Origin: Halobaculum sp. MBLA0143
GTDB taxonomy: Archaea; Halobacteriota; Halobacteria; Halobacteriales; Haloferacaceae
Assembly (NCBI RefSeq): GCF_041361465.1
Contig: NZ_JBGKAC010000001.1
Location: 434,001 to 498,000, forward strand
Direction of reading: 5' to 3'
DNA length: 64,000 bases
Part shown: one piece after another, positions 20,285 to 47,311 of the stretch
Layout: every line of letters begins with the position of its first letter
Position numbering within the stretch: position 1 is the stretch's first letter
Notes under the pieces: generated by a model
Databases searched by the model: none
What the model was told of the DNA's origin: nothing
What the model saw: the letters and a program-made list of their open reading frames with translations, nothing else
Made by a program: the position numbers and the translations under genes

Positions 20285-20335
20285 GTCGGGCGCTGGCGGC
20301 CCCGAACTTTTAACCCCCGGAACTGTCGCTGGGGT

Positions 20336-21262: not shown

Positions 21263-21391
21263 CGCCGTCTGAACGTCGCCGGTCGGAGCGCCGCGCCGGC
21301 GACGTGACCCCCACCCCGAGACGCGCTGGCGGCCGACCACCGCGACGTATCTCACAAAACACATTAGGAGGCCGGTCGGAATCGTACCGTA

Positions 21392-22785: not shown

Positions 22786-22837
22786 ACCGGTCGCTACGCG
22801 ACTCGGGGTCAAAAAGGGCCGACTCTGTAGCGGGCGA

Positions 22838-23065: not shown

Positions 23066-23172
23066 GCGGCAGGCTTCGACGCGCCGGTACAAAAGCGTCG
23101 TGAAACGCTGGCTCGCCGGTGTCGTCCCGCGAGTCCGTACGGTTTTTGTCCAGCCCCGGAGAAGACCGCTCC

Positions 23173-24439: not shown

Positions 24440-24521
24440 CCGACGGACCGTGGTGTGTGACCGCGGGACAGCGTCGACTCCTAACGCAACCCTTACAAGT
24501 CGCGCAGCGTTCGTACCTGGT

Positions 24522-24596
24522 AGCGGGATGGGATAGCCAGGAGATTCCGCCGGGCTCATAACCCGGAGATCGGTAGTTCAAATCTACCTCCCGCTA
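24522..24596 (+). tRNA. Initiator tRNA-Met (CAT)
   Basis: A full cloverleaf can be drawn: acceptor AGCGGGA pairing with TCCCGCT, discriminator A; D arm around GGGATAGCCAGGAGATTCC; anticodon stem CCGGG/CCCGG with CTCATAA loop; T arm GGTAG-TTCAAAT-CTACC. The three consecutive G-C pairs at the bottom of the anticodon stem and the A1:U72 pair mark an archaeal initiator rather than an elongator. The promoter lies upstream (CTTACAAG about 24492). CCA is not encoded. Confidence 0.95.
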
Positions 24597-24724
24597 CTCC
24601 TCTGGTGACCGACGCCCCCCAGCGTCGGGTCCGTCCCTGCCTCCGTTCTCGCTCGTGACTGTGTCCCAGGACGGCGTCCTTTCGGAACGATTAAGTCTGG
24701 GACGGCGATACGTCGTGGTGAAGC

Positions 24725-25459: not shown

Positions 25460-25906
25460 TCACCAGTCCAGCTGTAGTTCCGCGTCGAGGAACGCTTCCA
25501 CACTCCCGTACTCGTTCTCGACGACCTCGCACAGTTCGCGGTTGTCCCGGAGCCCGCCGCGGGTGATGTTCGCCGATCCGACGTAACGGAACTCCGGTGT
25601 GACAATCGCCTTCGCGTGAAGGTCATCGACGCTCTCGACACGGACGCGTTCGGGGAGCCGGCGCCGGACGTAATCGTTGTGTGACTCGCCCTCGCGCAGG
25701 TACACTTGGACTTCCGTCTCGACCACGGAGAGTGCAGTCGAGAGGCGTACTCGCCGCGGTAAACCACGCTCGGGGTCGGTCACTGGTAGCGAAATCCGCA
25801 CGTCGCTCAGCCACGGAGAGACGACGGCGACCCTCTCCGACCGCACCAGTGCGAATCCGAGGAGCGCTCCCAGCGCGTCAGAAGTCGAGGAAAATGCTCG
25901 TGTCAT
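25460..25906 (-). CDS. PLD-superfamily phosphodiesterase/nuclease (DpdK/DrmC-like)
   Basis: 148 residues with one HKD-type motif: HAKAIVTPEFRYVGSANITRGG (residues near 95-116), i.e. His-x-Lys followed by Gly-Ser-x-Asn; the usual Asp of HxKxxxxD is replaced. VAVVSPWLSD near residue 30 matches the first strand of PLD nucleases that dimerise to form one active site. ATG at 25906 overlaps the 3' end of the helicase gene by 29 bases, so both are co-translated. Small PLD proteins beside helicases occur as DpdK in dpd clusters and DrmC in DISARM. Predicted effector nuclease of the island. Confidence 0.75.
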   Translation of the reverse strand: MTRAFSSTSDALGALLGFALVRSERVAVVSPWLSDVRISLPVTDPERGLPRRVRLSTALSVVETEVQVYLREGESHNDYVRRRLPERVRVESVDDLHAKAIVTPEFRYVGSANITRGGLRDNRELCEVVENEYGSVEAFLDAELQLDW

Positions 25907-29993: not shown

Positions 29994-30181
29994 GTCGCCT
30001 CTCTGGAGGGTGAGAGGGCGTAAAAAAGGTCGGGTCCCGCCGAGTCTACCGGAGATCGCGCGGACCGACGGCGTTGTCACTATCCGCCGTCGCTGGCGTC
30101 GTGGTGGGAATCATCTGTCGTTGGGCGTGACTTTGAGTTTAGACGTAGCTCGCCGCGGGGCGAGCGTCGGTCGGTTCATCG

Positions 30182-31454: not shown

Positions 31455-31967
31455 GTGAACACGCTGCTCGTCCAATCCTGCTCTTCTCGGAAGACAGCAA
31501 CGACAGAGCCTCTCCCGGCGATAGAGCTGTACGACGGCTACTTCTACCGCATCCTGAAGAAGGCGCGCCGTGAGACGGATGAACTCCCGGTCGATATCCG
31601 GATTCTGTCTGCCGAACACGGACTACTCCACCCGGAGACGCCCATCGAGCCGTACGACCGAGAGATGGACGCCGAGCGCGCCGCCGAGTTACGCGAGTCC
31701 GTCGTCGCGACGCTCGCCGACCTCGCGGGCGACTACGACCGGGTGGTAATTGTCGGGGGCACACAATACCGCTCCGCGACCGAGGGGCTCGCGGCGGCGA
31801 CGGACACGCCGGTCCACTACGTTCGCGGCGACGGGATCGGGGAGATGGGGGGGAAGCTGAAGCGGTTCCTCCACGGTGACGACGCGGCAGTCGTTGACGA
31901 CACCTCGACGGACGACGATCCACGTCGAGCAGACGAGCAACGACCGTCGAGCTGCGCGGGGGACTGA
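31455..31967 (+). CDS. DUF6884-like protein (ArcS/YaaA-related fold), first gene of the TGT operon
   Basis: 170 residues. The pattern LLVQSCSSRKT...PAIELYDGYFYRILKKAR...DIRILSAEHGLLHPETPIEPYD is that of DUF6884 proteins: an N-terminal Cys-Ser-x-x-Lys strand, a 'LY.g.f' helix and 'SA.HGLl.p...i.pYd'. This resembles the Cys/Lys signature of the ArcS core domain, so it may act on the 7-deazaguanine base or on DNA. GTG at 31455 is fixed by a TATA box at the leaderless distance. The stop TGA overlaps the ATG of the TGT gene by one base, so it is coupled to a base-exchange enzyme. The C-terminal 40 residues are disordered and acidic. Confidence 0.65.
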   Translation: MNTLLVQSCSSRKTATTEPLPAIELYDGYFYRILKKARRETDELPVDIRILSAEHGLLHPETPIEPYDREMDAERAAELRESVVATLADLAGDYDRVVIVGGTQYRSATEGLAAATDTPVHYVRGDGIGEMGGKLKRFLHGDDAAVVDDTSTDDDPRRADEQRPSSCAGD

Positions 31968-33238
31968 TGTCGAACACGCGCACGCACGCGGACGGAGACG
32001 AGCGAGACGGAGACGAGCCACCGTTCGCGTTCACCGTCGAGGCGACCGCCGGCGACGCGCGAGCGGGACGGCTCCGCGTCCGCGACACGGAGCTTCCCAC
32101 CCCGGCGATGTTCCCGGTGGTCAACTTCTACGGCGGTGGTCGCCCGAGAAGCTTCTTCGGCGGGGGGATCTACCGAACCGTGAAGGAACTCGCCGTCGGT
32201 GTCGAGCGTGTCGACGGCGTCGCCGCGCCGGAGTACTTCGACGCTACGATGATGTCCGTCGCCTCGCTCACCGACTACGGAATCTCCGAAGACCTGTTCG
32301 AGACGTACCGCGACACGGAGCTGTTGGAGCGTTCGGAGTTCGAGTCGTTAGAGAGCCTGCTGTTCCTCGACTCGGGCGGGTTCAAGTTCCTCGGCGACGG
32401 CCAGTTGGAGGGGAACGGCTTCGCCGTCGAGATGGACCAGACGGCTGTGTACGAGATTCAACGTGATCTCGGCGGCGACGTGCTCGTCAACCTCGACCAC
32501 CCGATTGCACCGGACGACGACCACGCGACCCGCGTCGAGAAGGCCAGGAAGACCGCCGAGAACGTCGAGACGTTCCTGTCGCTGACGGCCGACAGCGACG
32601 CGGCGCTGTACCTCACTCTCCACGGCTACAACTATTCGATGATGGACGAGTTTTTGGAGACAGTCACGGATGTCGTCCCGGCGTCGGTGCTTCGGGAGGG
32701 GTTCGACGGCATCGCGCTCGGGAGCCTCGTTCCAAAGAAAGACGATCGCGAGGCGTTGATCCAAGCGGTGAGTGACTGCCGTGAAGTGCTCGCCGACTGG
32801 GGAATGCGCGACCGACCATTGCACGTCCTCGGAATCGGCAGCCGTGCTATCCCGCTCCTCGTCGGAATGGGCGTCGACAGCTTCGACTCGACGACGTACG
32901 TCCAGAACGCCATCAACGGGAAGTACCAACAGTCGTTGGTCGACACCGTCCCGCTGGACGACGCCGACTTCGACCGGTGCGACTGTCCGGTGTGTTCTTC
33001 CGACGTGCTCGTCTCGCGGATGCGTGGCGACGCCGAGTACAAGAAAGACGTGCTCGGACCCGTCGCCGTTCACAACCTGATCGTCCAGAAGCGCGACGTG
33101 GCGGCGCTCAGAGAGACCGTCGCGTCGGGCGAGACCGGGCAAGTAATACAGTACCTCGAAGATACACTCGGACACCACGAGACGATGAGGAAACACGCAC
33201 ACGCAGTCGTCAACCGTTCGTTGGGAGGGTACTTCTGA
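31967..33238 (+). CDS. TGT-family transglycosylase, DpdA-like (predicted DNA guanine to preQ0 exchange)
   Basis: 423 residues. The queuine/archaeosine tRNA-ribosyltransferase fold is clear: LFLDSGGFKF (general-acid Asp 135), substrate-pocket strands (LVNLDHPI, YLTLHGYNYS), GIALGSLVPKK, and GMGVDSFDSTTY, where Asp 307 of FDS aligns with the catalytic nucleophile. The zinc site is complete: Cys 338, Cys 340, Cys 343 (CDCPVC) and a His in AVHNL about 25 residues on. There is no PUA domain, and the protein is shorter than archaeal tRNA TGT, as in DpdA. Placed between a DUF6884-like gene and a GHKL ATPase gene (adjacent TGA-ATG) inside a helicase/nuclease island, it more likely acts on DNA than tRNA. 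Confidence 0.8.
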   Translation: MSNTRTHADGDERDGDEPPFAFTVEATAGDARAGRLRVRDTELPTPAMFPVVNFYGGGRPRSFFGGGIYRTVKELAVGVERVDGVAAPEYFDATMMSVASLTDYGISEDLFETYRDTELLERSEFESLESLLFLDSGGFKFLGDGQLEGNGFAVEMDQTAVYEIQRDLGGDVLVNLDHPIAPDDDHATRVEKARKTAENVETFLSLTADSDAALYLTLHGYNYSMMDEFLETVTDVVPASVLREGFDGIALGSLVPKKDDREALIQAVSDCREVLADWGMRDRPLHVLGIGSRAIPLLVGMGVDSFDSTTYVQNAINGKYQQSLVDTVPLDDADFDRCDCPVCSSDVLVSRMRGDAEYKKDVLGPVAVHNLIVQKRDVAALRETVASGETGQVIQYLEDTLGHHETMRKHAHAVVNRSLGGYF

Positions 33239-34771
33239 ATGCTCCGTGAACCGACAGTGAACGAGGTCAACGAGTTTCTGGAGATCGCCTCCGACTTCGA
33301 GGACCCGTTGGAGGTGATCCGGGAGTCGTTGTCGAACGCCTACGACGCCGAGGCGACGACGGTCCGGATCGCCATCGAGCACGCCGAGAACGGCTCCGAC
33401 ATCGTGGTCGCCGACGACGGCCACGGCATGGACGACCGCGACCTCGCGTCGTTCTTCGACCTCGGTAACTCCCGCAAAGAGGACAGTATCGGGTACAAAG
33501 GACACGGAACCAAGATTTTCTACAAGTCCGACCGGATCACAGTCGAGACGGTCCACGACGGGACGGAGCGACGCGCGGTCATGGACGACCCCTGGCGAAA
33601 GCTCAACGACCGTGTCCTCCCGGAGTACGAGGTGACGGAAGACGACACGGACCTCGACGAGATGTCGACTCGAATCCGGATCGAGAACTTCCGGTCTGGC
33701 CAGGGGTTCGACCCGTCGAAGCTCACCTACAACAAGATCGAACACTACCTCTACTGGAAGACAATCGTCGGGTCGACCGCACACCACTTCGGAGACGACC
33801 ACCGTCGGATGCAGGTCGTCGTCGACCTCGACGAGCGAATCGACGACACCCGAGACAGTCTCGACACCCGGACGGGGTTCGAGTTCCCGGACGAACAGCT
33901 CGACCCCGGCGACGGCGACCAGCCGGCGGCGTACATGTGCAAACACTACCCACCCCGGGAGCTGTCGGTCGAGTACGACGGCGGGGAGACGACGGTTCAG
34001 ATGGTCGGGATGGTCGGCGGGAAGGCGGCGCGAAACGAACTCCCGACCTACGGGAAACACTCCGCGCAGTTCGGCGTCTGGCTCGCCAAAGACCACATCA
34101 AAGTCGAACGGATCAACGACACCCTCGCGCACGACAACGAGTTCCTCCACTTCATGTTCGTCGCCAACTGCCAGGACATCGAACTGGCCGCCAACCGGGA
34201 GTCGATCCGGAACAAGGCGAGTCCGGTGTTCGCGGCCATCCGCGAGGAGGTCTCGTACTACATGTCGAAGGTCGCCAACGACCCCTGGTTCGAGACGTAC
34301 CTGGAGGCTCGAAAGCGTGGTCGGTACGAGCGCCGCGTCGACGACGAGGCCGGCGGCGTGTCCGAGCGTCGCGCGGCCGTCGCCGACCGTGGCGGCTTCT
34401 CACCGTCAAACCGCCCGGAGCTGCTGGTCGGCCTCCAGCGTGCTACGGCCCGCGACGACACTCTCGACGTGACCGTCGAAGACTTCGCTCCCGGCTCCGA
34501 GGTCAACGCGCTGCTCACACGCGACGGAACGCTCGAGAACGCCGCCGTCGCACACACCCTCACCGGGCTCCTCGACGACGGCGTGCCACTCGAACCGGTC
34601 GACGTGGTCGTCTGTTGGGAGCAGGGCGACCCGACGGAGCTCCGCGAGTGGGAACGGCGCGACTACTTCGGCGGCAGCCTCGCAGTCGACACCGACGCCG
34701 GACGGCTCACCTACGACTCCGACGGTCGCCACACAGTCGACGTGCTCGAACTCGCACCGTACTTCGAGTGA
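33239..34771 (+). CDS. GHKL (Hsp90/MORC-like) ATPase
   Basis: 510 residues. Bergerat ATP fold: RESLSNAYDAEA (N-box with Glu/Asn, residues about 28-40), DDGHGMDDRDL (D-x-G-x-G, about 59-69) and GYKGHGTKIFYKSD (glycine-rich lid, about 83-96). The middle half is a transducer-like alpha/beta region (FGVWLAKDHIKVERINDT, ANCQDIELAANRESIRNK), typical of MORC/Hsp90-like GHKL proteins in bacterial conflict systems. The C-terminal 120 residues are a separate domain with no match I can name. It begins at the base after the TGT stop codon. Role: ATP-driven clamp or DNA remodelling linked to the modification or defence; inference. Confidence 0.8.
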   Translation: MLREPTVNEVNEFLEIASDFEDPLEVIRESLSNAYDAEATTVRIAIEHAENGSDIVVADDGHGMDDRDLASFFDLGNSRKEDSIGYKGHGTKIFYKSDRITVETVHDGTERRAVMDDPWRKLNDRVLPEYEVTEDDTDLDEMSTRIRIENFRSGQGFDPSKLTYNKIEHYLYWKTIVGSTAHHFGDDHRRMQVVVDLDERIDDTRDSLDTRTGFEFPDEQLDPGDGDQPAAYMCKHYPPRELSVEYDGGETTVQMVGMVGGKAARNELPTYGKHSAQFGVWLAKDHIKVERINDTLAHDNEFLHFMFVANCQDIELAANRESIRNKASPVFAAIREEVSYYMSKVANDPWFETYLEARKRGRYERRVDDEAGGVSERRAAVADRGGFSPSNRPELLVGLQRATARDDTLDVTVEDFAPGSEVNALLTRDGTLENAAVAHTLTGLLDDGVPLEPVDVVVCWEQGDPTELREWERRDYFGGSLAVDTDAGRLTYDSDGRHTVDVLELAPYFE

Positions 34772-34814: not shown

Positions 34815-35498
34815 TCACGACAGCGACAGTTCGACGTACGCCGACAGGTCCGACTCGGCAAGCAGCTCTCGTTCTTCTGCCGACAGATCACCGTAGGTGA
34901 GCCGTTCGTCGTCGAGCAGTCGCTGGACGACCGGCCACACCTCCGTGCCGCGGTACGGACCGAACAGTTCGTCCTGCAGCTCCTGTGAGTGGCCACGGAA
35001 CTCGTCGCCCACCGTCGCTGCGTCGTCGAGCGCAGCCTCGAAGTCGTCCGCGCCGACCTCAACGTTCGCCCGCCAGTTCCAGTCGTCCAACAGAGTCTCG
35101 ATGGCCGCCAGCCGCTCGGGGTCGACCCGCTCCACCCGTTCGTTCAGCCGTTGCATCGCTCGGACGCGATTCAACGCGTCGAGCCGCTTCGGCTGCACCT
35201 CGTTTTCCAGTCGTCGCTTCGCGGCAGACACCTCCGTCGACACGTCGTCGAGTTTCTCGTCTAGGCTCGCGTACGAACCCTCGTCGAGCAGTCCTCGAGC
35301 GTCGTCGACCGCCGCCTGCGCCTCCGGTTCGATTTCGAACTCGGCGTCGAACAACGCTGCCGCGAACGCACGCTGGAGGAGTGTCTCTTCCATCTCCACC
35401 GCGAGGGCCGACAACGACTCCGCCAGGTCTCGTCGCCGATACCGCTCCTGTGTCTGTCTGAGCTGTTCCGCGAAGCCACCCGTCGTATCACTCGACAT
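34815..35498 (-). CDS. Coiled-coil protein of the island (DpdI-like position)
   Basis: 227 residues, highly acidic and almost wholly helical, with a long heptad-rich stretch (LDEKLDDVSTEVSAAKRRLENEV, ALNRVRAMQRLNERVERV) that predicts coiled coil. No catalytic motif seen. Its ATG overlaps the end of the ATPase gene upstream by 11 bases, so the two are translationally coupled. In bacterial dpd clusters dpdG, dpdH and dpdI are consecutive; the size, order and coupling here suggest the DpdI role, but sequence homology cannot be proven by eye. It converges with the GHKL gene. Confidence 0.6.
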   Translation of the reverse strand: MSSDTTGGFAEQLRQTQERYRRRDLAESLSALAVEMEETLLQRAFAAALFDAEFEIEPEAQAAVDDARGLLDEGSYASLDEKLDDVSTEVSAAKRRLENEVQPKRLDALNRVRAMQRLNERVERVDPERLAAIETLLDDWNWRANVEVGADDFEAALDDAATVGDEFRGHSQELQDELFGPYRGTEVWPVVQRLLDDERLTYGDLSAEERELLAESDLSAYVELSLS

Positions 35499-38475
35499 AG
35501 TAGTTGCTCACCTCCGAGAACCGGCCCCCGAGACTGTCGGTCTCACTGCCCGGGTCGAGCGTGACGTTCTGGAACCGCTCGTACGGCTCGCTCCGCCGAA
35601 CGTACACGTCCAACAGCCGCACCCGCAGTTGGTCTAACGGCGACCGACTCTCCGCGAGTTCGAGCGCCCCGTGTGCCGCGTCGATGGTGTCCTCGAACGC
35701 CTCGTCGTCGACCCGGGCGAACTTCGCCAGCGACTCCCGCACCTGCGGGCTGACACTGTCGTACGTTCGGAGCGTCTGGTGGATCTCTCTCACCTCGCCG
35801 AGGTCGATCACCCCGAGTTCGTTGACGACCGTCTCGATTGCCGTAGGGTTACCGCCCGTCTCGATCAGCGCGTCGACACGCTGCCGGAGGTCGTACGCGC
35901 CGTTGGCGACCGATCGGAGCTTCTCGTCGCCGATTCGCACGTCCGTGCTGATGTTCTGGATGTACCCTCGACCGAGGTACTTCAGCACCTCGTGCGGGGG
36001 ACTGTTCGACAGTCGACTACGAAGCTCCGGCAGATCTAACGCCGAGCCGCCGACGCCGAGTAGTTCACCCAGCAGGTCTTCGAGCACACCGGCGTCTTCG
36101 ACCGCCGACTTCAGCTCTCGGAACTCCTCGACCGACAGGCTCTGTTCACACCAGTCGACGACACGGGGGTGGATCTCGAAGTCGTCGGTCTCACCGTACC
36201 GCTCGGCGAACGTCTCCGCGGTCACCGGTCGGGTGGGGTCTTCGAACACCATCGCCGCCGCGTACGTCGAGACGGCGAAGTCCACGAGACCGTAGTCTGC
36301 GTGCCGCTTGTACAGTACGTCGTCGTCTTCGAGGTACGTCGCCCTGAGCGTCCGCCGCCAGGCGTCGGCGTACCCCGTCAGCTGCGTTCCCATCCGGTCG
36401 AACAGTTCGTCGCGCCGCGGCGTCCCCGTTCCTTCCTCACACCGAACACCGTACGCCAGGAGTCGACGGAGCGCAGACGACCGGAAGTCGTCCGGGTCGA
36501 CCTCGATCTGGTACGGTTCCGGCGCGTCGGTCGTGTTGCCGAAGACGAACGGGTCCTGTTGGTTGCTGACGTTGAACGTCAGGTTCGTCCCCTCGTACAG
36601 CGCGAATCCGTCGGTGAGGTACTTCAGCGCGTCACGCAGCCCGGCACGGAGGTAGATCCCCGTCTGGCTGTTCTCGCCCGGTCGTTCCTTCCAGGCACCG
36701 ACGAGCGGCTTGTGTTCGTCGATCTTCTCTTGGACGAGGTCCCGTGTCGTTCCGCCGGTCCCGCTGCCGCCACCACCAGTGCCAGTGCCGCCGCCACCTG
36801 TGCCAGTGCCGCCGCCACCTGTGCCAGTGCCGCCGCCACCCGTGCCAGTGCCGCCGGTGGGGGGCGACCCCCCGCCACCGCTCCCGGAACGAATCCGAAG
36901 TGTTCCGTCGTCGCTGTCGCGGCCCCCTTCGACGTGTTCCGGGAGTTCGTCGACATCGAAGCCGAACGCCATCGGGAACCGGTAGTCGACGTGTATCCAC
37001 CCGTCGTTCTCCTCGCCGTACCACCGGAACACCTCCGCGAGCTCCGGGTGTGCCTCCTCTACGTCGTCGTCGACGAGCAACGGCTGTTTCAGCGTCTTCA
37101 ACGCGCCGGCGCTCGACGGCGCGTCGACGCGACCCTTGTAGTAGTCCTCCAACACCTCGAACACGATCATCACGATCTCTCGTGGCGACTGCTGGCTCTC
37201 GGGCAGTCCGGCGTACACCCGTTCGACGAACCGCTCGTGGAACGGGAACAGATCGCGGAACGACTCGTCACACAGCCCACACGTCGCACAGGTGGTCCCG
37301 TCGGGTGCCGGGCGCAGACGCTCGACGGCCCCGTCCGCGTCGCGGTCGTACGAGACGCTCCCGTCGAGCGACTTGAAGTACCCCAGGTACGGCCTGACGA
37401 AGTCGACGACCGACTCCTCGTCTAGGAACAACACGCTGTTGGAGTCGGGGTCGTTCGTCTGGAAGAACTCGAAGCGGTCCTCTGCAGTCCGCGTGTGGAG
37501 TACTTCCGTAGAGTCGCGAGTGCCGGCGACGACGAAGTCCCAGTTGTCGCCGTCCTTGTCACGCTCCATGTAGTTGCGGAGCTGACGCGCCTCCATCGCG
37601 GTGATGGCGAAGTCCTCGAACACGATCACCGGCCGGGTGTCGTCGAAGGCAGCCCCGACACGTTGGAGCACCTCGTTCAACGACGCCGTGCCGTACCGGT
37701 CACGGATCTCTCGCCACAACTCCGTGTTCAGCGCGTCGATGGCAGTCTCCTCGTCTGGGGCCTCCCCGTCTGTGAACACCTCGAAACAGTCGCGCTGCCG
37801 GTATGCACCCTCGGAGACGAACTTCACCTCCGTCCCGTACTGCTCGCGCTCAACGAGCTGTTGGAGCTGACTCCGGACGTGATCCTGAATGCCGTCCTGT
37901 TGCTCGTTCGTGTAGTCGACGTCGAACCCGCGGTCCGCGAGGTTCAACAACGCGCCCGAGGACGCGTACCGCGCGACGGCGTCGGGCGTCTCGCGGATGT
38001 CCGCCTCCAACTCCTCGAACTCTGTCTTCCCCGGCAGTTCCTCACCGACGTGTTCCTGGTAGAAGTCGGGAATCCGGTCGGTCAGCAACGACATCAGGTC
38101 GTCGTCTTTGTCGACGTGGAGAATCGGCCGGTCGTCGTCGTCGAGCCGGTGGGCGAGGTACGCACACAGCTCCGACTTCCCGGTGCCGACCTCTCCTTCG
38201 ATGACGACGGCGAAGTTACCCCTGCGACTCTCGGAGAACAGTTCGTACACCTCGTCTTCGGAGACGACCGGCGCACTCGACACGTTCGCGCCAGTCGACC
38301 GGTAGACGTCGATCTCTCGGTGCGTGAAGTCGAACAGGTCCCGATCTTCCGACCGTACGGCCGCGACCTTGCTGAACAGTCGCCGGAGCGTCTCCTCTTC
38401 GACGTTGTCGAAGTGTGGACACCGGTCGTACTCCCAGGCGTCCGACTCCGCCGCCGGCGTCGTGTTCTGACTCAC
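35488..38475 (-). CDS. Large P-loop ATPase (DpdH-like)
   Basis: 995 residues. Walker A GEVGTGKSE (Lys 100) with the preceding strand NFAVVIE; Walker B PVIVFEDF near residue 283-290 and a sensor-like VVAGTRDS, consistent with AAA/STAND ATPases. CATCGLCDESF near residue 397 is a possible zinc knuckle. A Gly/Thr-rich hinge of 7-residue repeats (about 540-572) separates the ATPase half from a C-terminal helical half with several winged-helix-like segments. Its start overlaps the upstream gene by four bases (ATGA) and its end overlaps the downstream coiled-coil gene. Size and order match DpdH; PglY/BrxC-type BREX ATPases are the alternative. Predicted restriction motor. Confidence 0.7.
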   Translation of the reverse strand: MSQNTTPAAESDAWEYDRCPHFDNVEEETLRRLFSKVAAVRSEDRDLFDFTHREIDVYRSTGANVSSAPVVSEDEVYELFSESRRGNFAVVIEGEVGTGKSELCAYLAHRLDDDDRPILHVDKDDDLMSLLTDRIPDFYQEHVGEELPGKTEFEELEADIRETPDAVARYASSGALLNLADRGFDVDYTNEQQDGIQDHVRSQLQQLVEREQYGTEVKFVSEGAYRQRDCFEVFTDGEAPDEETAIDALNTELWREIRDRYGTASLNEVLQRVGAAFDDTRPVIVFEDFAITAMEARQLRNYMERDKDGDNWDFVVAGTRDSTEVLHTRTAEDRFEFFQTNDPDSNSVLFLDEESVVDFVRPYLGYFKSLDGSVSYDRDADGAVERLRPAPDGTTCATCGLCDESFRDLFPFHERFVERVYAGLPESQQSPREIVMIVFEVLEDYYKGRVDAPSSAGALKTLKQPLLVDDDVEEAHPELAEVFRWYGEENDGWIHVDYRFPMAFGFDVDELPEHVEGGRDSDDGTLRIRSGSGGGGSPPTGGTGTGGGGTGTGGGGTGTGGGGTGTGGGGSGTGGTTRDLVQEKIDEHKPLVGAWKERPGENSQTGIYLRAGLRDALKYLTDGFALYEGTNLTFNVSNQQDPFVFGNTTDAPEPYQIEVDPDDFRSSALRRLLAYGVRCEEGTGTPRRDELFDRMGTQLTGYADAWRRTLRATYLEDDDVLYKRHADYGLVDFAVSTYAAAMVFEDPTRPVTAETFAERYGETDDFEIHPRVVDWCEQSLSVEEFRELKSAVEDAGVLEDLLGELLGVGGSALDLPELRSRLSNSPPHEVLKYLGRGYIQNISTDVRIGDEKLRSVANGAYDLRQRVDALIETGGNPTAIETVVNELGVIDLGEVREIHQTLRTYDSVSPQVRESLAKFARVDDEAFEDTIDAAHGALELAESRSPLDQLRVRLLDVYVRRSEPYERFQNVTLDPGSETDSLGGRFSEVSNYYVE
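36761..36862 (-). repeat. 21-bp in-frame minisatellite in the ATPase gene
   Basis: Units of 21 bases beginning GTGCCAGTGCCGCCGCCACC start at 36779, 36800, 36821 and 36842; the first three are full copies (the third with one change at its end), the fourth diverges in its last third, and a degenerate partial unit precedes them. Each encodes Gly-Gly-Thr-Gly-Thr-Gly-Gly on the complement, making a flexible linker. Copy-number change by slippage would keep the reading frame and alter linker length. Confidence 0.85.
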
Positions 38476-39296
38476 GACAGCACCTCGATCGTGTTCGCCT
38501 CGGTGTCGATTCCGGACCGTCGCGGCACGTCGTCGAGCCCGACTGCACCCGCGTCACCCCGTTCGACGAGTCGAATCGTGCCGTCACGCACGAGTTCGAA
38601 CAACAGCCGGGCCAGCGGCGCTGGCACGGTCCCCTCCTGGAGCGTGACCGGCAGGAGGTTCGTCTGGAGCCACTCGAAGTACTCCCGAATCCCGAGGTAG
38701 TCGTCGCCGTCGGCCGCGAGCCTGACCGACGCCTCGATCAACTCCGGGGTCGGTCTGACGGCGTGCTCCCGGCCGGTCGTCTTGTACACTAACCCGAGGA
38801 AGTTCGCCTGCCGCGACCAGTTGACGAACTTCGGGTCGTTCAGCGTGATCGACCCCTGTGAGGACTGCGGATCGTAGCTCAGTTCGCTCCGGTACCAGTC
38901 GTCGATTCTGTCGTACAGCCCCGTGTCGTTGTTCTCGAAGTACTGGACATCGTGTTCGAGCATGTACTTGTAGATCAGGAGCACGACTGACTGCTTTCCC
39001 CAGTCGGGGCCCGTACACTCCCGGGCGAGGTTGTGGAGGATCGTCAACCGGAAGTCACGGTCGTCGTCACCGGTGTCGAAAGCGTACTCCACCGTGTGGA
39101 ATTCGTAGTCTTCCTTGCCAATCATCCGATACTGTCGCAGGCCGTTCAGGCCGTCGCTCAGCCGTTCTTCGTCGAACCCCAGTTCCGCTTCGAGTTCGTC
39201 GCGGGCTGTCACTCCACGATCGATTGCGTCGTAGAGGGGTTTGATCGGCTCCGGCGTCTGGAGCGTGTTGAGAACGTACCCCTCACTCGTACTCAT
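38472..39296 (-). CDS. Winged-helix-like island protein (DpdG-like position)
   Basis: 274 residues, no catalytic motif. The N-terminus (EPIKPLYDAIDRGVTARDELEAELGFDEERLSDGLNGLRQYRMIGKE) has the helix-turn-helix plus wing rhythm of a winged-helix domain; the remainder is mixed alpha with aromatic-rich segments (YKYMLEHDVQYF, IREYFEWLQTNLLPV). ATG at 39296 is supported by a TATA-like ATTAATATAC on the complement (39313-39322). It starts the three-gene unit ending at 34815 and overlaps the ATPase gene by ATGA. Order and size suggest DpdG; homology is unproven. Confidence 0.6.
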   Translation of the reverse strand: MSTSEGYVLNTLQTPEPIKPLYDAIDRGVTARDELEAELGFDEERLSDGLNGLRQYRMIGKEDYEFHTVEYAFDTGDDDRDFRLTILHNLARECTGPDWGKQSVVLLIYKYMLEHDVQYFENNDTGLYDRIDDWYRSELSYDPQSSQGSITLNDPKFVNWSRQANFLGLVYKTTGREHAVRPTPELIEASVRLAADGDDYLGIREYFEWLQTNLLPVTLQEGTVPAPLARLLFELVRDGTIRLVERGDAGAVGLDDVPRRSGIDTEANTIEVLS

Positions 39297-39473
39297 ACCC
39301 ACATATCGGCCACGTATATTAATGTAGCTTACTGTCGAGCAGCGACAGTACACCCGACGACCGTCGCGCCCCCGAGGAACACCGAAAAGCGGGGGTCACG
39401 ACGGAGCCACATCGACCACCCGATTGTGCCTGGACCCCCGCGGTCGACGACTGTCACCAGCTACGATCGAGAC

Positions 39474-40418
39474 TCACACGACTGCCGTGAGCGACCGCGT
39501 CAGCCACCCGTGGAGTCGCGCGTCGACCGGCGACGCGTCGGCTCTCAGTCGATCCGCGGCGTCTCGGCCCCGCTTGAGCGCCGGCATCTGGTTCGCGTGT
39601 GCCGGATCGAACGTCTTGCCGTCTCTCCCGACCCGCCTGTTGTACTCGGCGACGATCTCGCGTGCAGTGCCACGGTCCAGCTCCACCCGACGGCGGAGCC
39701 ACCGCGAAACGTCGTCGACGGCGTCGTCCGAGTCCAGCGGCGCGGTACCGTACTCCTCCGGCCGCGAGAACAATGCCGCGAACGTGTCGTACAATGGGAG
39801 GTACGGCGCGTCCGGCAGCGCCTCGAACAGTTCGACGGTGGTGCGGGGCGGCTCGCCTTCCACGAGCTCGTACAGCAGCGCGTTGTCCTGGACGAAGAGG
39901 TTCCGGGTGTCGGACAGCGGGAGGTGGTGGCCGAACCGCTCGTACCGACGCTCGAACGCGTCGAACACGCGGTCGTAGTCGCCGATCCGGTCTGCAAACG
40001 GCTCCTGATCCAACGGACGCTGTCCGCCGACGGGGGTGAACCGCCGGTCGTCCGTCACGACGACGAGCGACCCCTCGTGGGTGTACCGCTCGATTACTGC
40101 CGAGACGGAGTGGGTCGTCTCCGTCTCGTAGTGTCCGTTCGTCACGATACACAGTTCCTCTGGTTGGTCGTCGTCCGGCCCGAGCTCCGAGAGGTGTCGG
40201 TAGGCGAAGTCGAGGTAGTCGTACTGCTCGTACCCCCAAATCTGGCGCCACGTCGTCGGGTACGTCACGTCGACGACACCGAGGTACCGCAACGCCGGAA
40301 CGGCACGCAACAGCCGCCACCGACTGTTGTCCACGGGGTCGTAGACGACCGACACCCGACTCTCGCACAGCCGGGCGAGAACGGGCTCCTCCGGTGACGG
40401 GTCGGACGTGCGGTTCAT
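39474..40418 (-). CDS. Island protein of unknown function coupled to the helicase
   Basis: 314 residues, acidic with many aromatic and Arg residues. Visible pieces: VVYDPVDNSRWRLLRAVPALRYLGVVDVTYPTTWRQIWGYEQYDY, GSLVVVTDDRRF and NLFVQDNALLYELV. The alternation of hydrophobic strands and helices suggests an alpha/beta domain at the N-terminus and an all-helical C-terminus, but I recognise no family. Its ATG overlaps the stop of the upstream helicase (ATGA), so it is expected to work with it. In bacterial systems a helicase partner of this size may guide DNA loading; that is speculation. Confidence 0.6.
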   Translation of the reverse strand: MNRTSDPSPEEPVLARLCESRVSVVYDPVDNSRWRLLRAVPALRYLGVVDVTYPTTWRQIWGYEQYDYLDFAYRHLSELGPDDDQPEELCIVTNGHYETETTHSVSAVIERYTHEGSLVVVTDDRRFTPVGGQRPLDQEPFADRIGDYDRVFDAFERRYERFGHHLPLSDTRNLFVQDNALLYELVEGEPPRTTVELFEALPDAPYLPLYDTFAALFSRPEEYGTAPLDSDDAVDDVSRWLRRRVELDRGTAREIVAEYNRRVGRDGKTFDPAHANQMPALKRGRDAADRLRADASPVDARLHGWLTRSLTAVV

Positions 40419-43400
40419 ACGGTTCCCTCGGCCCCAACACTCGCCGTCTCACCCCGCTGTCCGAAGACGGCCTGGAGGGTGTGTCGGTGGAGGAGGTCGT
40501 TCTCGAGGTAGTGTGCAGGCGTCCGTTCGAGCAGGAGACACTCGTCGCAGTAATCAGTACAGTCACAGTCAGCGACCTGAGTAGCGTTGCGCTCTATCCG
40601 GTTGAGCTGGTCTCGCACCTGTCGCGCGACCCCGTTGCCGCCCTGCCGGGCGTCGACTACGTGGACGAGAACCCGCCCACCACTCGTCCGGGAGACGATC
40701 CGGAAGTCATCGAGGTCGGAGTCGGTGACGACTGAGACCGACCGTCGGAGCGCTTGCTCGAGACTCGTCAACGCCTGCGCCCACGACGCCGTGTCGTGGC
40801 CGACGGCGGCGACCCGACTCCGGAGCTCCGTCTCGTCGAACTCGAGCGTGACCCCGCGGGTCCCGTACTGCTGGCCGACTGGGCGGTACGTCTCCTGTTC
40901 TGCGTCGGCCATCTGCTCGCGCCACGAAGTGGCGTCGGTAGTGGATCCCGAACTGTCCTGTTCGATCAGCGCTTCCGACGGGAGGAGTTCTTTGTCGGGA
41001 CTGCTGCTGTGGTAGCGCTCGAATGCGTACACGAAGTCGGTGACGTTCCGGAGCCCGTACGTGACCGTACAGTCCAGCCCGAACATCGTCGCCTCAGCTG
41101 TCTCTTCGTCGGCACTCGTGTCGGTGTCGACGTAGGTGGTCGTGATCCCTCGAGTGCTGTAGTTGCGCTGGCCTCCCCGCGCGAGCTCACACTCTACCGA
41201 GTCGATTCCGTGGACCGTGGTCTCGGCCAGCTCTGTCTCACAGTGGGGACAGAGGTCTACGTCCGGCTCGTAGCTGTGGAACGGCCGCCCACAGTCGTCG
41301 TTCGTACACAGCTTGACGCTGACGAGCGGCTCTGTCGTCCCTCGCACGTCGTCGACGAGGTACGTGTTACCGTGGAGTGTCACCGCCCCACCCAGCCCAT
41401 TCCCCTCGCCGGGGAACATGTCGTGGAGTCGTCCGCTCCCTTCGAAGCTAACCTCTTCTCGCCTGCCAGAGAAGGTCACGGGGAAGCTCCCACCGAAGCT
41501 CCGGTAGTTCGCCAGGAATCCCAACTGTCGGAGCCACTGGTCCAGCCGTCTGTTCTTCTGGATTACGTCTTCGCCGGCGCCACCCCCGCCGGTGACGAGC
41601 TTCGAGTACGTGTTGTCGACCCGGTGCGTGAGCGACAGCGCGCCGTCACCGTCGAACACCCGTTCGAACACCTCCACGCCGGCTTCGCCGAACACGTTCT
41701 TCAGGTGTCGCCTCAGTGCCGTCGCCCGTTCGTCGAGCGTGAACTGCCGGAGAACGTCCATCCGCTTGCGAACCTCCTCGACGAACGCCTCCGTGCTCTT
41801 GTTCGTCTCCTCGATCTGGTACATCTTCTGGAAGACGTTCTCTTCGTGCGGGTTGCGCGCGAGGTAACCGAACACCTCCGTGACGACGTGGCCGGCGAGC
41901 AGTTCCTCGTACTCGAACGGGTCCGGGACAGAGACTGGCTCCATCGTCTCGAAGAACTCGTCCAAGTCACTGTAGTAGTGGCCGTCCACCGGGTGGTTCC
42001 CACGGATTGCAGTGACGACGAGCGAGGAACTCCCTCGCGAGCGTCCCGTCCGACCGCTCCGTTGGACGTAGTTCGTCAGCGTCGGTGGGATGCCGACCTG
42101 CCCGACCGTCTCCAGCGTCCCGATGTCCACCCCGAGCTCCATCGTCGGCGTGGCACTGACGACGTTCACTTCCGGGTCCTCGCGTCGGAACCCCTCTTCG
42201 ATGGCACCACGGACTGCGTGGGGGGTGTCGCCCTTGTGGATCCCGACGGTGATGAACTCCGGCTCGTCTCCGCCACGGATTGGCGTCGTCACGTCGTGAG
42301 CCCAGTGGTCGAGAGCGTACGACCACTCCGACGAAAGCTCCACGTACCCCGGGTCGGCGACGAGCCCGTCGTCGCCCTCACTGAACCGCTCGGCGACCAC
42401 CAACGACGACCCACAGTCCGGACACCGCTCGACGGTCGTCCCGTCGTCGAACGCCGGGACGGCATCGTAACAGTCCGGACAGACCCCGGCCGTCCGCACG
42501 AGCCGGAGGTCGGAGTCGTCCTTCCGTGTGGTGCGCGTCAGGAGACCGCTCTCGGGGTTGTCGACGACCCCACGCTCCGCCAGCGACTCCTTGGCGTCTT
42601 CGAGGTACTCGCGCACCTCGGCTTTCTTCTCGTCGGCGACGTTCCCCTTCGTGACCCGTTCTCTCACGTCGTTGTGTGACGCTTCGACGAGGATACCGGC
42701 GTCGAGGAACGCCTGGAGAGCGTCGTCGAGCACTGCGCCGATCTGCTCTCGGTCGAAGCCGACCCGAGACTCCAGGCGGTCGAGCAGCTTCGGTCGGGTC
42801 AGCCCGTCGAAGCTCACCTTGTTCATCGTGAACCCCGTGTTGGGGTCGAGCACGAACAACGTGTACAGCCGGTGTCTGACGAGCAGGTCCACCGGGTCGT
42901 CCGTGTCGAAGACGGGCACGGCCGTGACGAGGGCGCTCTCCAGCAGGTGCTCGCAGTTGTACAGCGAGGCCTGTTCCTCGATTCGGTCGCGGTACGCGAC
43001 GAGGAACTTGAACGCCTCCCCGTTCTCGTCCATCTCCGTCTGCATCAGTGGCTCCCAGTACTCCTCGCGGAGTCGGTCGGCGACGGCGCTGTAAGCGTCG
43101 TAGTTGTCGAGCCGCCCCTCGTTTGCCAACAGCTCGCGGACGTACAGCGTCTCCGCCATCAGCCCGTACTCCGTCTCGATAATCTGGTCGGCGACGCTCT
43201 CGGCGGTCGCCCGGGAGTCGGAGAAGACGAGTGTCTTCTCCGAGGGCGTGTCCCGGCTCATCTGCGTCAGCATGTACGAGAACAGCGTCGGCGTCGGCAC
43301 TGTCACGTCCGTCAGATTCGGCGTCCGACCACAGCCCGGACAGGTGCCCGTCTCGACCCACCCCGTCACCGGGCGGAACGACGCTTCGCTGCGGCGGCCG

Positions 43401-45181
43401 GGAGACCCATCTTCGGTCTCGTCTGCCTCGACGTACACCTCGCGGCAGCGCTTACAGAACTGGATCTCCGGAAGCTCGCGGTTACACTCCGGACAACTGT
43501 CCTTCCGTGTTACTTGTTCGCAGTCCCGACACCAGTACACCTGTGCCGGCGGCTTCAGGAACGTGTGATACTTCTCCGTCACAATGCCGGCCAGCCGGCC
43601 GAACGCCATCACGGTCGACAACGCTCCAACGGGGTCGTCTGCCCCCTCGTCGACCGCTCGGCGCCGGAGTTCGTCGTACTCCAGAAACCCGACTTCGCCG
43701 GTCGTGCCTTCGTCGAACCACGCAGCGAATCTCGCCACCTCTGGGACGCGTTCTGTGACGAACGCCACCCAGCCGGAGTCCGTCCCGCTGGCTTCCAACA
43801 CGGCCTCGCTGAGCCGGTTACGCCCTCGGCGCGTCCGGACCACGTCCGCCGCGTCCTCGAACCCCGGCTCCGTCAGCAGCTCGTCGAGCGTCTCGTCGAC
43901 CGGATCACGCAGCCATGGCCCCGCCGCGGATCCGAGACTGAGCGTGTCGCCGGGGCTCAGGAGTCGAACCTCGCGGAGCGTCTCGATTGCTCCGTCGAGT
44001 TCGAACCGCTCGCGAGCGGTCTCGACGCTCACGTCGCCGGCCCGCGCCAGCGCGAGCACCTCCGTGATGTCGTCGACGCTGCAGTTGGCGAACCGACCGA
44101 AGTCCGGCTCGTCTGTTACTCCGAAAGAGCGCCCGGTGAAGGTCACAGCGTCGATGTCCTCTGGCTGTCCACCCGTGAGTCCCGCTGCGAGCTCTCGTGG
44201 GTTGTCGACGGTCGCTGACACCATCGTCACCTGTGGGTCACGGTCGGCGTAGAACTCCTTCAGTCGTCGAGCGAGCAACGAGATTGCTGCACCCTGAATT
44301 CCACTCCAGACGTGGGCCTCGTCGAACACGATGTGTTTCACCGGGTTCGCGCCCGGCTCGTGGCCGAGTATCGACCGCGTGTCCGGATTGTCGGAGACGA
44401 ACATGTAGTCTAACGCCTCCGGGTTCGTCAGGAGAATATCGACACCCTGTCTGATCGACTCTCGTGTCACTCGGAGCCACGGATACTGGTGGCTGTCCGT
44501 CCCGACACCGATGTCGTCGAAAATCTTCAGCTTCGTGTCCTCCTGGCGAGGGCACTCCAGCCCGCGAACGAACGAGCCGTTCTCGATCTCGTAGTCCCGG
44601 GTGCCGACTCGTTGCGGGGTGTCGGAGTCCCAGATTCCGACTGTGATCCGATCACCCGGGTCGCGGTAACGGTTGATCTGGTCGAGGTACGCGACGAACC
44701 GGTTGAGCTGGTCGACACCCAACGTCTTCATGGGGTACAAGATGATAGACTTCAGCCCCGGTTCGTCCGTCTCCAGACAGTGCTGGAGAATCGGGAGGAA
44801 GAACGACTCTGTCTTCCCGGTCGCGGTCGGTACCGCGAGAACATTGTCGTTGTCCGACCTCGCAATATTCTCCATCGTCTCTGCTTGGTGACGGTAGAAC
44901 TGTCCTTCCTCGCCACCGAACAGCTCCTGACGCACGGCGTCGACGACCGCCTCGTCGTACTCCAGTTCCGACAGCAGTTCACTGCCGGATCGGTCGTCGA
45001 ACGCTGGCGCCTCGACGTACTCCACGTACGGTCCCTTCTGTTCGATTAGCTCGTTCTCGACGAACTCTCGAGCGTTCTCGACATCCGGCACGTCGACCAG
45101 TTCCGTAACGTTCCGGTTCCACCAGGTGATCTCTGCGGCCCGGTCGACGGCGTTCCCGAGGGTCTCCTGTGGATCTGTCAT
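40415..45181 (-). CDS. Giant DEAH-box helicase with C-terminal DUF1998/MZB zinc domain
   Basis: 1588 residues. SF2 helicase: Walker A PTATGKTE (Lys 123), DEAH at 287-290, VSATVDN (motif III), TPTMELGVDIG and QRSGRTGRSRG (motifs V, VI). Between the lobes lies a zinc-rich insert: CRDCEQ...CPEC, FCKRCREVY, TCPGCGR and, further on, CPDC...CPDCGS. At the C-terminus CDCTDYCDEC (Cys 1539, 1541, 1545, 1548) is the four-cysteine site seen in DUF1998/MZB helicases such as MrfA/Hrq1. ATG at 45181 (MTDPQETLGNAV). It follows the TGT-ArcS fusion gene by 144 bases and is coupled to the next gene by ATGA. Predicted DNA translocase of the island's restriction or modification arm. Confidence 0.8.
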   Translation of the reverse strand: MTDPQETLGNAVDRAAEITWWNRNVTELVDVPDVENAREFVENELIEQKGPYVEYVEAPAFDDRSGSELLSELEYDEAVVDAVRQELFGGEEGQFYRHQAETMENIARSDNDNVLAVPTATGKTESFFLPILQHCLETDEPGLKSIILYPMKTLGVDQLNRFVAYLDQINRYRDPGDRITVGIWDSDTPQRVGTRDYEIENGSFVRGLECPRQEDTKLKIFDDIGVGTDSHQYPWLRVTRESIRQGVDILLTNPEALDYMFVSDNPDTRSILGHEPGANPVKHIVFDEAHVWSGIQGAAISLLARRLKEFYADRDPQVTMVSATVDNPRELAAGLTGGQPEDIDAVTFTGRSFGVTDEPDFGRFANCSVDDITEVLALARAGDVSVETARERFELDGAIETLREVRLLSPGDTLSLGSAAGPWLRDPVDETLDELLTEPGFEDAADVVRTRRGRNRLSEAVLEASGTDSGWVAFVTERVPEVARFAAWFDEGTTGEVGFLEYDELRRRAVDEGADDPVGALSTVMAFGRLAGIVTEKYHTFLKPPAQVYWCRDCEQVTRKDSCPECNRELPEIQFCKRCREVYVEADETEDGSPGRRSEASFRPVTGWVETGTCPGCGRTPNLTDVTVPTPTLFSYMLTQMSRDTPSEKTLVFSDSRATAESVADQIIETEYGLMAETLYVRELLANEGRLDNYDAYSAVADRLREEYWEPLMQTEMDENGEAFKFLVAYRDRIEEQASLYNCEHLLESALVTAVPVFDTDDPVDLLVRHRLYTLFVLDPNTGFTMNKVSFDGLTRPKLLDRLESRVGFDREQIGAVLDDALQAFLDAGILVEASHNDVRERVTKGNVADEKKAEVREYLEDAKESLAERGVVDNPESGLLTRTTRKDDSDLRLVRTAGVCPDCYDAVPAFDDGTTVERCPDCGSSLVVAERFSEGDDGLVADPGYVELSSEWSYALDHWAHDVTTPIRGGDEPEFITVGIHKGDTPHAVRGAIEEGFRREDPEVNVVSATPTMELGVDIGTLETVGQVGIPPTLTNYVQRSGRTGRSRGSSSLVVTAIRGNHPVDGHYYSDLDEFFETMEPVSVPDPFEYEELLAGHVVTEVFGYLARNPHEENVFQKMYQIEETNKSTEAFVEEVRKRMDVLRQFTLDERATALRRHLKNVFGEAGVEVFERVFDGDGALSLTHRVDNTYSKLVTGGGGAGEDVIQKNRRLDQWLRQLGFLANYRSFGGSFPVTFSGRREEVSFEGSGRLHDMFPGEGNGLGGAVTLHGNTYLVDDVRGTTEPLVSVKLCTNDDCGRPFHSYEPDVDLCPHCETELAETTVHGIDSVECELARGGQRNYSTRGITTTYVDTDTSADEETAEATMFGLDCTVTYGLRNVTDFVYAFERYHSSSPDKELLPSEALIEQDSSGSTTDATSWREQMADAEQETYRPVGQQYGTRGVTLEFDETELRSRVAAVGHDTASWAQALTSLEQALRRSVSVVTDSDLDDFRIVSRTSGGRVLVHVVDARQGGNGVARQVRDQLNRIERNATQVADCDCTDYCDECLLLERTPAHYLENDLLHRHTLQAVFGQRGETASVGAEGTV

Positions 45182-45325
45182 TCTCGTTCGAGTCGCGGCG
45201 CCCAACCGCGGGCACCGTCGTCTGTGATCCTCGTTAGTTCTCGGCACGTAAGAAACCCACCGGACGACGAACACTCTCGGACGACCTCCGTGTCTGACAG
45301 TCCGACGCCTATCGACGACACTCGG

Positions 45326-47311
45326 TCACGCCTGCTCGTCGAGGTACGCCCGGAGCTGCTCGATGTTCGAGTTCCGGAAGTACTCCGACAGCTGGAGTGC
45401 CTCCGGCTCACGGGGGAACACCTCGCCACGCCCGTGGCTCTCGAACGCGTCGACGACGACTTGGCGGTACGTCTTGCTCGTCACGTACGCGAGAATCTGG
45501 TCGTAGGCGCTCCCGTGTTCCTGCAAGAACTCCACGAGTCGGTCGGTCACCCGTCGAATCTGTCGTTCGTCCTCCTTCGCCAGGACGTACTCGTAGCTCA
45601 ACACTGACTCCTCTTCCTCGTACTCCTCGGGCACGGGACCGTACATCCCCGAGACGGACACTTTGTGCACTCGGTCGGTCCGGTCACCGAGCTTGTCCCA
45701 CAACACCCGGTGAGTCCGAGACTCCGAGTACGGTTTCGCCTGACTGCACGGGAGGATCAACAACACGTCTTCGTCCGGAGGGGTGAACGACTGTCGTCGG
45801 AGGTCGAAGCTCTCTGGACCGTACTTCAGTGATACGCTCCGCGCCTCGTCGGTCTCCTCGATTCCACCGCTCCACCGTGAGAGCTTCGTCTGATCGCTCG
45901 TGATCGCCGGACCAGGGAGGTGGTCGTGAGCCCCACGCTCTCGTACCGCCGCCCGAAGGTGTTTGTCACGCCGCTGTGCGTACCGAAGCCCCTTCGCAAT
46001 CTCTTCGTGATCACGGGCGAAGTCGATCAGGTACGACAGCAGTTCTCCTTCACGGATGCGTTCGCGGACTCGCGCCATCTCGTCGTTGTACACCTCGAAG
46101 TTGTGACGCGCCAGCAGCGCGTAGTAGTAGCTCTTCAGCTTCTCGTCCGACTCGTCGCTCCGCCGTCGTTGCATCTCCTCGTAGCCGTAGTCGTCGTTGA
46201 TGCCCTCGACGAGGTCCTGGTAGTCGAATCCATCTGAACCGTACAGCGGGCTGTGATCCATCTCTCCCGGGAAGGATCCGTCCTCTCCGACGACTGCTTC
46301 GAGATCGTCGAGCGTGTACCGCTCCCATGTCTCCGGGTGGATGAACTTCCGGTACTGTGCGGCCTGGACGTGTGTCGAACAGTCGAAGGAGTCGACACCC
46401 AGTAGTGACAGCAGCGAGACCTGCTTACCCCCGATTCCAAACACATGGAGGCCGATTTCGTCTCGCCGACCGTTCGGAATCGCGTCTTTGGCCCCCTGGA
46501 CGATGTCGACGAGCACCTCCGTGCTACTCCGGAGTGGGACCAGAGAGCCGACCGCGAACCCTTCGAACGACCGCGAGACGGACTCCTCTTCGATTCGTTC
46601 GAGGAAGTTCCCGACGTACCAGTTGATAGTCTCGTAGTCGTGACCGTGGAGTGCGACGTAGACGCCCGGATCCTCACCTGCGTCGATTCGCTGTTGCAGC
46701 CGCTCGGCCGCGCGGTCGTTCTTGTCGAACGCCTCGGCGAGCCGTTCCGGTTGCTCCAGTAGCTCCAGGCACTCGACAGCACTCTCGATGCTGTCCCGCA
46801 TCCTCTCGACCTGCTCGGCGTCGTTGAGCTTCGGCGGGATGGGGTAGTCCAGTGTCGCCAGCAGGTCGCCGCCGAAGTCGACCTGTAGTCCGAGGATGCT
46901 CTGCGGGTCCGTGTACAGCCCCCACTCGTTCTCGACTCCTCCCTCGGACGGCGCCTCACCGAACGTGTCGGAGTTCATCAGCTTGAATCCGCCAGAGTCG
47001 ACGAACACCGGCACATCGAGCTCCTCGAACCGCTCGTGGAACGACTGTTCTCGCCACCACTCCAGGTTCTCCGGTGTGACACCGTACTCGGTGAAGCTCA
47101 TCGCCTGGAACATCACTCCTTGGAGCCGATTACTGGTCAGCAGCTCGTCACGGATACGGCTCCAGATTCCACCGGACTTCTTCGTGGTCCCCCCAATAAG
47201 ATTGATAACTGGAAACAGCGCAGGCGTCTCTACTGGGCCATGGGGGATGTCGAGTTCTCCCGTTCGGCCGAAGGCGTCGTCGTCGTCGACAACCGATCGA
47301 AAGGACGGCAT
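45326..47311 (-). CDS. TGT/DpdA-like transglycosylase fused to an ArcS-type (archaeosine synthase) domain
   Basis: 661 residues. The N-terminal domain (about 1-400) is a TGT fold: VFVDSGGFKLM (Asp 105), YVALHGHDYETI, FAVGSLVPLR and LGVDSFDCSTH with Asp 310 in the nucleophile position. The CxCxxC of the TGT zinc site is absent, although an equivalent His (ARHNFEVY) remains. The C-terminal domain (about 500-640) contains LPCSQAKPYSESRTH (residues 520-534), an exact match to the ArcS signature PC-x3-KPY-x2-S-x2-H, followed by VSVSGMYGPVPEEYE and YVTSKTYRQVV. ArcS converts preQ0 in tRNA on the way to archaeosine. In this context the protein is predicted to install and convert a 7-deazaguanine in DNA. 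TATA CCTTTTTCACC lies 30-40 bases upstream. Confidence 0.8.
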   Translation of the reverse strand: MPSFRSVVDDDDAFGRTGELDIPHGPVETPALFPVINLIGGTTKKSGGIWSRIRDELLTSNRLQGVMFQAMSFTEYGVTPENLEWWREQSFHERFEELDVPVFVDSGGFKLMNSDTFGEAPSEGGVENEWGLYTDPQSILGLQVDFGGDLLATLDYPIPPKLNDAEQVERMRDSIESAVECLELLEQPERLAEAFDKNDRAAERLQQRIDAGEDPGVYVALHGHDYETINWYVGNFLERIEEESVSRSFEGFAVGSLVPLRSSTEVLVDIVQGAKDAIPNGRRDEIGLHVFGIGGKQVSLLSLLGVDSFDCSTHVQAAQYRKFIHPETWERYTLDDLEAVVGEDGSFPGEMDHSPLYGSDGFDYQDLVEGINDDYGYEEMQRRRSDESDEKLKSYYYALLARHNFEVYNDEMARVRERIREGELLSYLIDFARDHEEIAKGLRYAQRRDKHLRAAVRERGAHDHLPGPAITSDQTKLSRWSGGIEETDEARSVSLKYGPESFDLRRQSFTPPDEDVLLILPCSQAKPYSESRTHRVLWDKLGDRTDRVHKVSVSGMYGPVPEEYEEEESVLSYEYVLAKEDERQIRRVTDRLVEFLQEHGSAYDQILAYVTSKTYRQVVVDAFESHGRGEVFPREPEALQLSEYFRNSNIEQLRAYLDEQA

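Follow-up and report, generated by a model that had tools for sequence, protein, structure and literature searches.

The window, as we call the whole 64,000-nucleotide stretch of Halobaculum sp. MBLA0143 DNA analysed here, encodes a TGT-DUF5591 fusion protein (FUS), which we read as a bifunctional enzyme of a Dpd-like restriction-modification island, combining a DNA-guanine transglycosylase with a modifier of the preQ0 nitrile; the probability of this reading is put at about 0.74. FUS probably marks the DNA of the cell as self by introducing an altered guanine. The DNA substrate, the chemistry of FUS and the restriction by the island are what we infer from the evidence given below. The protein and its parts are the following:

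45326..47311, minus strand: FUS, TGT-DUF5591 fusion, 661 aa (open frame, Pfam, conservation in 38 of 391 genomes)
45926..47311, minus strand: TGT domain of FUS, residues 1-462 (Pfam; AlphaFold2 model compared with 1iq8)
45428..45793, minus strand: DUF5591 (ArcS-type) domain of FUS, residues 507-628 (Pfam PF17884, E 3.6e-17, far over the cut-off)
45710..45751, minus strand: motif PCSQAKPYSESRTH, residues 521-534 of FUS (motif search)

The frame begins with ATG and its 661 codons contain no internal stop. Residues 13-324 matched the Pfam TGT family (PF01702) with an E value of 1e-22, far over the cut-off. An AlphaFold2 model of FUS was computed from an alignment of 33 homologues (mean pLDDT 81.6), and its residues 1-462 could be superimposed on the Pyrococcus ArcTGT (1iq8) with a Z score of 34.2 over 347 residues at 2.9 A. 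The preliminary description of this DNA had proposed a 661-codon frame with a TGT fold, and had suggested structure prediction with superposition on TGT; the frame was borne out and the fold was found to be complete. The active-site positions are occupied by D105 (in DSGGF), D155, H222 and D310 (in SFDC, at the position of the nucleophile), and the homologues show no variation at either catalytic Asp, at D155 or in the glycine loop. FUS shares with ArcTGT (TgtA, TIGR00432) the TGT fold, the catalytic Asp pair and, probably, preQ0 as the donor, but it lacks a PUA domain, falls in a separate clade and, like TGT2, the second TGT of the island, has HG where ArcTGT and bacterial Tgt have QG.

The zinc site of TGT consists of three Cys and a His. 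In the window FUS the Cys positions are taken by G349, S354 and Y357, while the catalytic residues are retained; all three Cys are kept in 38 of the 40 aligned sequences, and no copy other than that of the window lacks all three. Since nearly all relatives retain the zinc cysteines that are missing here, the window copy may be impaired.

The DUF5591 domain gave a phmmer match to the AF0587 structure (2q07, E 4e-7). Since the structural alignment of the full FUS model (VIA-align) listed TGT chains only, the fold of this half rests on sequence, that is, on Pfam and on 2q07 by phmmer. The pattern PC-x3-KPY-x2-S-x2-H occurs a single time across the six frames of the window, as PCSQAKPYSESRTH, exactly at the residues where it had been placed before, and its chance expectation in shuffled FUS is approx. 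1.5e-8. Across the 33 aligned homologues C522, S523, K526, P527, Y528 and S531 are invariant and H534 is nearly so. No PUA domain was found in FUS by Pfam, and the C-terminus extends about 30 aa beyond the DUF5591 match. Naming the motif the ArcS signature was correct insofar as it matches ArcS, but it is no proof of an archaeosine product, since stand-alone DUF5591 proteins of about 200-250 aa, in methanogens and others, carry the full motif without TGT or PUA, and the motif alone is therefore not diagnostic for archaeosine. ArcS is also present in most genomes having such stand-alone proteins (loci L160-L174).

ArcS (NF040592; TgtA2) acts on preQ0 at position 15 of tRNA, and has the same domain order as FUS, a TGT-like half followed by DUF5591, as well as the same motif. 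However, the TGT half of ArcS is degenerate and groups with ArcTGT, a PUA domain is present and the substrate is tRNA, whereas FUS has an intact TGT half (D105, D155, D310) and no PUA. Only the C-terminal portion of the TGT model aligned to ArcS, which does not have the catalytic residue set of FUS. With the NCBIfam equivalog of ArcS (NF040592) FUS scored 98.7 bits, the cut-off being 440, and the best match was in the DUF5591 part. The preliminary description had not mentioned that ArcS itself already joins a TGT-like half, though a degenerate one, to DUF5591 and PUA.

In the phylogenetic tree the TGT half of FUS and TGT2 formed two clades, which joined to the exclusion of ArcTGT, the union having moderate support (89/68). 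When the tree was limited to the C-terminal region of the barrel, ArcS grouped with ArcTGT (98/91) and not with FUS, and the union of FUS and TGT2 was lost. FUS, ArcS and the stand-alone proteins made three clades in the DUF5591 tree. Since both halves branch apart from ArcS/ArcTGT, FUS did not arise recently as a copy of ArcS; a mere duplicated ArcS was rejected because the TGT half splits from both ArcS and ArcTGT.

The other genes of the island in the window are the following:

25508..25888, minus strand: DpdK-like phospholipase-D-fold segment, in the ORF 25460-26074 (NCBIfam DpdK E 3.8e-12, 46 bits, cut-off 100)
25878..30080, minus strand: DpdJ-like helicase (NCBIfam DpdJ E 5e-49, 167 bits, cut-off 800)
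31455..31967, plus strand: DUF6884 protein, DpdC-like, with CxxxK and LSAxxG (Pfam E 3.8e-16; PADLOC DpdC 1.5e-6; AlphaFold2 model)
31967..33238, plus strand: TGT2, DpdA-like, with a CxCxxC...H zinc site (Pfam E 1.5e-22; PADLOC DpdA 2e-8; invariant residues)
33239..34771, plus strand: GHKL-type ATPase (Pfam HATPase_c_3 E 2.3e-15; collinear with TGT2 in nearly all loci)
34815..35498, minus strand: U227, restriction-block gene without family name (conserved in the block)
35488..38475, minus strand: DpdH-like P-loop ATPase (PADLOC DpdH E 3.7e-5; NCBIfam DpdH 1.1e-3, under the cut-off)
38472..39353, minus strand: U293, restriction-block gene without family name (conserved in the block)
39474..40418, minus strand: U314, restriction-block gene without family name (conserved in the block)
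40415..45274, minus strand: large DEAD/Helicase_C/MZB helicase, DruE/DpdJ-like (immediately downstream of FUS, in the same orientation)

The second TGT and the DpdC-like gene had not appeared in the preliminary description. The DpdH-, DpdJ- and DpdK-like matches are significant and all below the curated cut-offs, the DpdK-like segment comes after the DpdJ-like helicase, and further restriction genes of dpdD-K are unnamed. U227, U293 and U314 received no name from Pfam, PADLOC or NCBIfam, and their related copies had no Dpd match. The DpdC component was weak by the DpdC model and good by DUF6884; TGT2 scored 32.7 bits with the NCBIfam DpdA model (cut-off 200), the DpdA models of NCBIfam and PADLOC did not match FUS, and neither did any other PADLOC model. 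The bacterial Dpd system (dpdA-C for synthesis, dpdD-K for restriction) likewise brings together a TGT, a DUF6884/DpdC-like protein and DpdH/J/K-like proteins. In contrast with it, the haloarchaeal island resides in an archaeal host, has a GHKL ATPase and two TGTs, one of them fused to DUF5591, matches the Dpd models below their cut-offs and yielded no DpdB (DndB-like) match in PADLOC or NCBIfam among its ten main proteins. Since the defining features of ArcS, DpdA and canonical Dpd were each looked for and found lacking, FUS and its island are assigned to none of these classes.

The G+C content of the island (25878-47311) is 0.59-0.66 in 2-kb bins, somewhat under that of most flanking DNA. 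At one edge, genes for tRNA-Met and tRNA-Thr lie at a distance of about 1 kb; a search of the rest of the window for repeats of either tRNA was negative, and an attachment site is thus not shown. Beside the island, at 48334-49257, there is a gene of the modification-dependent type with SRA (SAD_SRA) and HNH endonuclease domains; it does not recur beside FUS in other genomes and was rejected as a component of the system.

Full-length relatives of FUS were found in 38 of 391 haloarchaeal genomes, in 25 of 86 genera, with the architecture at full length in 12 named genomes and on two sequenced plasmids. In a phylum-wide genome sample the relatives were confined to the same order, and none was detected in phage records or in IMG/VR viral contigs; TGT2 had no relatives in the phage records either. 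FUS and TGT2 occurred together in 37 genomes, FUS without TGT2 in a single one (G236), TGT2 alone in 5 and neither in 348, the kinship of the genomes being uncorrected in these counts. A Haladaptatus plasmid (L112) has two divergent FUS copies on opposite strands (20001-22022 and 22736-24700) with a gene for a GIY-YIG-like protein between them.

The neighbourhood of FUS, approx. 37 kb in each case, was surveyed in 30 genomes. Of the 30 loci, 25 have the DUF6884-TGT2-GHKL trio no more than 18 kb from FUS, and 4 of the remaining 5 have TGT2 elsewhere in the genome, 26-180 kb off. The restriction-like block helicase-U314-U293-DpdH-like-U227 was near FUS in 17 loci and the DpdJ-like helicase in 14; about 40% of the loci have no restriction block inside 18 kb. 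Since the order and orientation of the blocks vary, the trio and the restriction block behave as two movable modules.

In all five TGT2-only loci (L205-L209) two further genes lie directly beside the trio. One encodes a second DUF6884 protein; the other encodes a protein of 310 aa, for which the phage collection contained a single relative, the annotated DpdA of Halorubrum tailed virus 29 (26.8% identity, E 1e-12). This HRTV-29-type DpdA homologue was present in none of the 39 FUS loci. The viral-type DpdA proteins are 83-95% alike among the five loci, and these replacements are probably one event. A DpdA-type transglycosylase together with a CxxxK-fold protein thus seems able to take the place of FUS. 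The replacement is our best argument that FUS acts on DNA and that its two halves perform two consecutive steps. In at least three of the five variant loci the neighbouring genes include one for an 829-aa restriction protein of the GmrSD type (type IV). On a Haloarcula sinaiiensis plasmid (L113, 6602-15094) a different TGT, of 344 aa, occurs with QueE, QueD, an EVE-domain protein and a BREX-type ATPase, possibly another 7-deazaguanine DNA system.

In the dG+ pathway of phage 9g and Vibrio phage nt-1, DpdA places a 7-deazaguanine in DNA, as is proposed for FUS, and in nt-1 ArcS is a protein apart. Phages have the amidotransferase (Gat-QueC, QueF-L or ArcS) on a protein of its own (PMC6884629), and FUS was detected neither in phage records nor in viral contigs. 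On a Picosynechococcus plasmid (L158, 1074-7082), a bacterial parallel with two TGTs, the annotated DpdA is a DUF6884-TGT fusion and the second TGT lies between two helicases; this DpdA resembles FUS in joining a TGT to a CxxxK-fold domain, with the difference that its DUF6884 is N-terminal and the DUF5591 of FUS is C-terminal.

Because of the Dpd-like neighbours, the replacement by the viral-type DpdA and the lack of PUA, FUS most likely acts on DNA. From the intact active site and the fold, the TGT half would excise a guanine from DNA through a covalent Asp310 intermediate and insert preQ0 from the archaeosine pathway of the host; QueC was found in the host genome. The DUF5591 half, with its Cys522/Lys526 site, would by homology then attack the nitrile of the DNA-bound preQ0 to give the final base. 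If this is a lysine adduct, it could be converted into deoxyarchaeosine by the chromosomal RaSEA of the host (431.7 bits, cut-off 212). The ArcS of T. kodakarensis transfers lysine to a preQ0 nucleoside 5'-phosphate without requiring the tRNA body, is active only in complex with RaSEA, and its product, preQ0-Lys, resists reverse exchange (PMC11298593). Fusion of both activities would trap the base against reverse exchange. The split pair of TGT2 and DUF6884, with the GHKL ATPase, would complete the modification module, and restriction, as an attack on unmarked DNA, is the likely task of the helicase/DpdH-like/PLD block. Points that weigh against our reading are the missing DpdB match, the position of the Dpd matches of the restriction block below the cut-offs, the loci lacking that block, the lost zinc cysteines, the probable single origin of the five replacements and the dependence of ArcS on RaSEA.

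By analogy with ArcS, the final base has about an even chance of being the lysine adduct, convertible to deoxyarchaeosine. By analogy with DpdC it could, with distinctly lower probability, be the amide dADG, and otherwise something else. If FUS makes dADG, its DUF5591 half would perform a DpdC-like nitrile hydration and the island would function like any Dpd system of the dADG type, only with two TGTs, which is possible although we do not favour it. The Dpd member of the YaaA/DpdC/DUF6884 group makes dADG. The AlphaFold2 model of the DUF6884 protein (pLDDT 89.7) matched E. coli YaaA (DUF328, DpdC family) with Z 10.9 and the ArcS-type AF0587 with Z 10.2, apparently one fold, the rest being at 6.8 or below. 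CxxxK and LSAxxG motifs of DUF6884 and its kinship to YaaA were noted by the authors of Pfam (PMC11701544), and the dpdC proteins of bacterial islands carry DUF6884 (PMC11888242), which also speaks for dADG; from these links and the model matches DUF5591, DUF6884 and DpdC/YaaA look like one superfamily. The replacement pair in the five loci, furthermore, has a second DUF6884 and not DUF5591. On the other hand, FUS has the full PC-x3-KPY-x2-S-x2-H of ArcS/DUF5591 and DUF6884 has CxxxK only, and a second hydrolase would be redundant with the separate DUF6884 already in the module. The earlier proposal of an archaeosine-type base made in DNA by a fused enzyme is thus supported as regards the TGT/ArcS-type fusion, the DNA-defence context and DNA as the likeliest target, but archaeosine or a lysine adduct as the product is not established, given the stand-alone motif carriers and the fold common with YaaA/DpdC/DUF6884.

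The role of FUS in the exchange itself could also be different. If TGT2 inserts preQ0, FUS could be its non-exchanging partner, as in QTRT2/QTRT1, contributing half of a heterodimer and the ArcS-type chemistry. The two proteins almost always co-occur, TGTs function as dimers (PMC6884629) and the window FUS has lost its zinc ligands; nevertheless, we consider this unlikely, since the invariant catalytic Asp pair, D155 and glycine loop are needless in a non-catalytic partner and G236 has FUS without TGT2. Still less probable is that FUS, as an ArcTGT/ArcS paralogue, modifies another position of tRNA or another RNA. ArcS, the characterised protein with a TGT-like part and DUF5591, works on tRNA (PMC11298593), and the helicase block is unlinked in some genomes. 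However, besides the missing PUA, the separate branching of the TGT half, the Dpd-like neighbours and the exchange with the viral-type DpdA, the host keeps its own ArcTGT and ArcS, and FUS is found in only about 10% of the genomes, being mobile and also carried on plasmids. Within our preferred reading, a bifunctional enzyme acting on DNA, the most specific version is tentative, its chances falling somewhat short of even: FUS alone would swap guanine for preQ0 in chromosomal DNA and finish it to the lysine adduct or deoxyarchaeosine with the RaSEA of tRNA metabolism, giving an archaeosine-type self-mark in a two-transglycosylase restriction system.

DNA marks of the 7-deazaguanine type are known from bacteria, from phages and from viruses of archaea; a survey of the bacterial dpd islands covered eight phyla (PMC11888242). 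In the literature searched, which did not extend to several of the core Dpd and ArcS papers, so that a prior mention is possible, no description of an altered-guanine self-mark in archaeal chromosomes was found. Several named strains in culture would allow the proposal to be examined directly by mass spectrometry. If it is true, the 7-deazaguanine systems would extend to archaeal cells by means of a conserved one-protein exchange-and-finish enzyme, which might be why a halovirus without its own DpdA shows dADG and dG+ in traces (PMC6884629), and the archaeosine chemistry of tRNA would be linked to DNA immunity.
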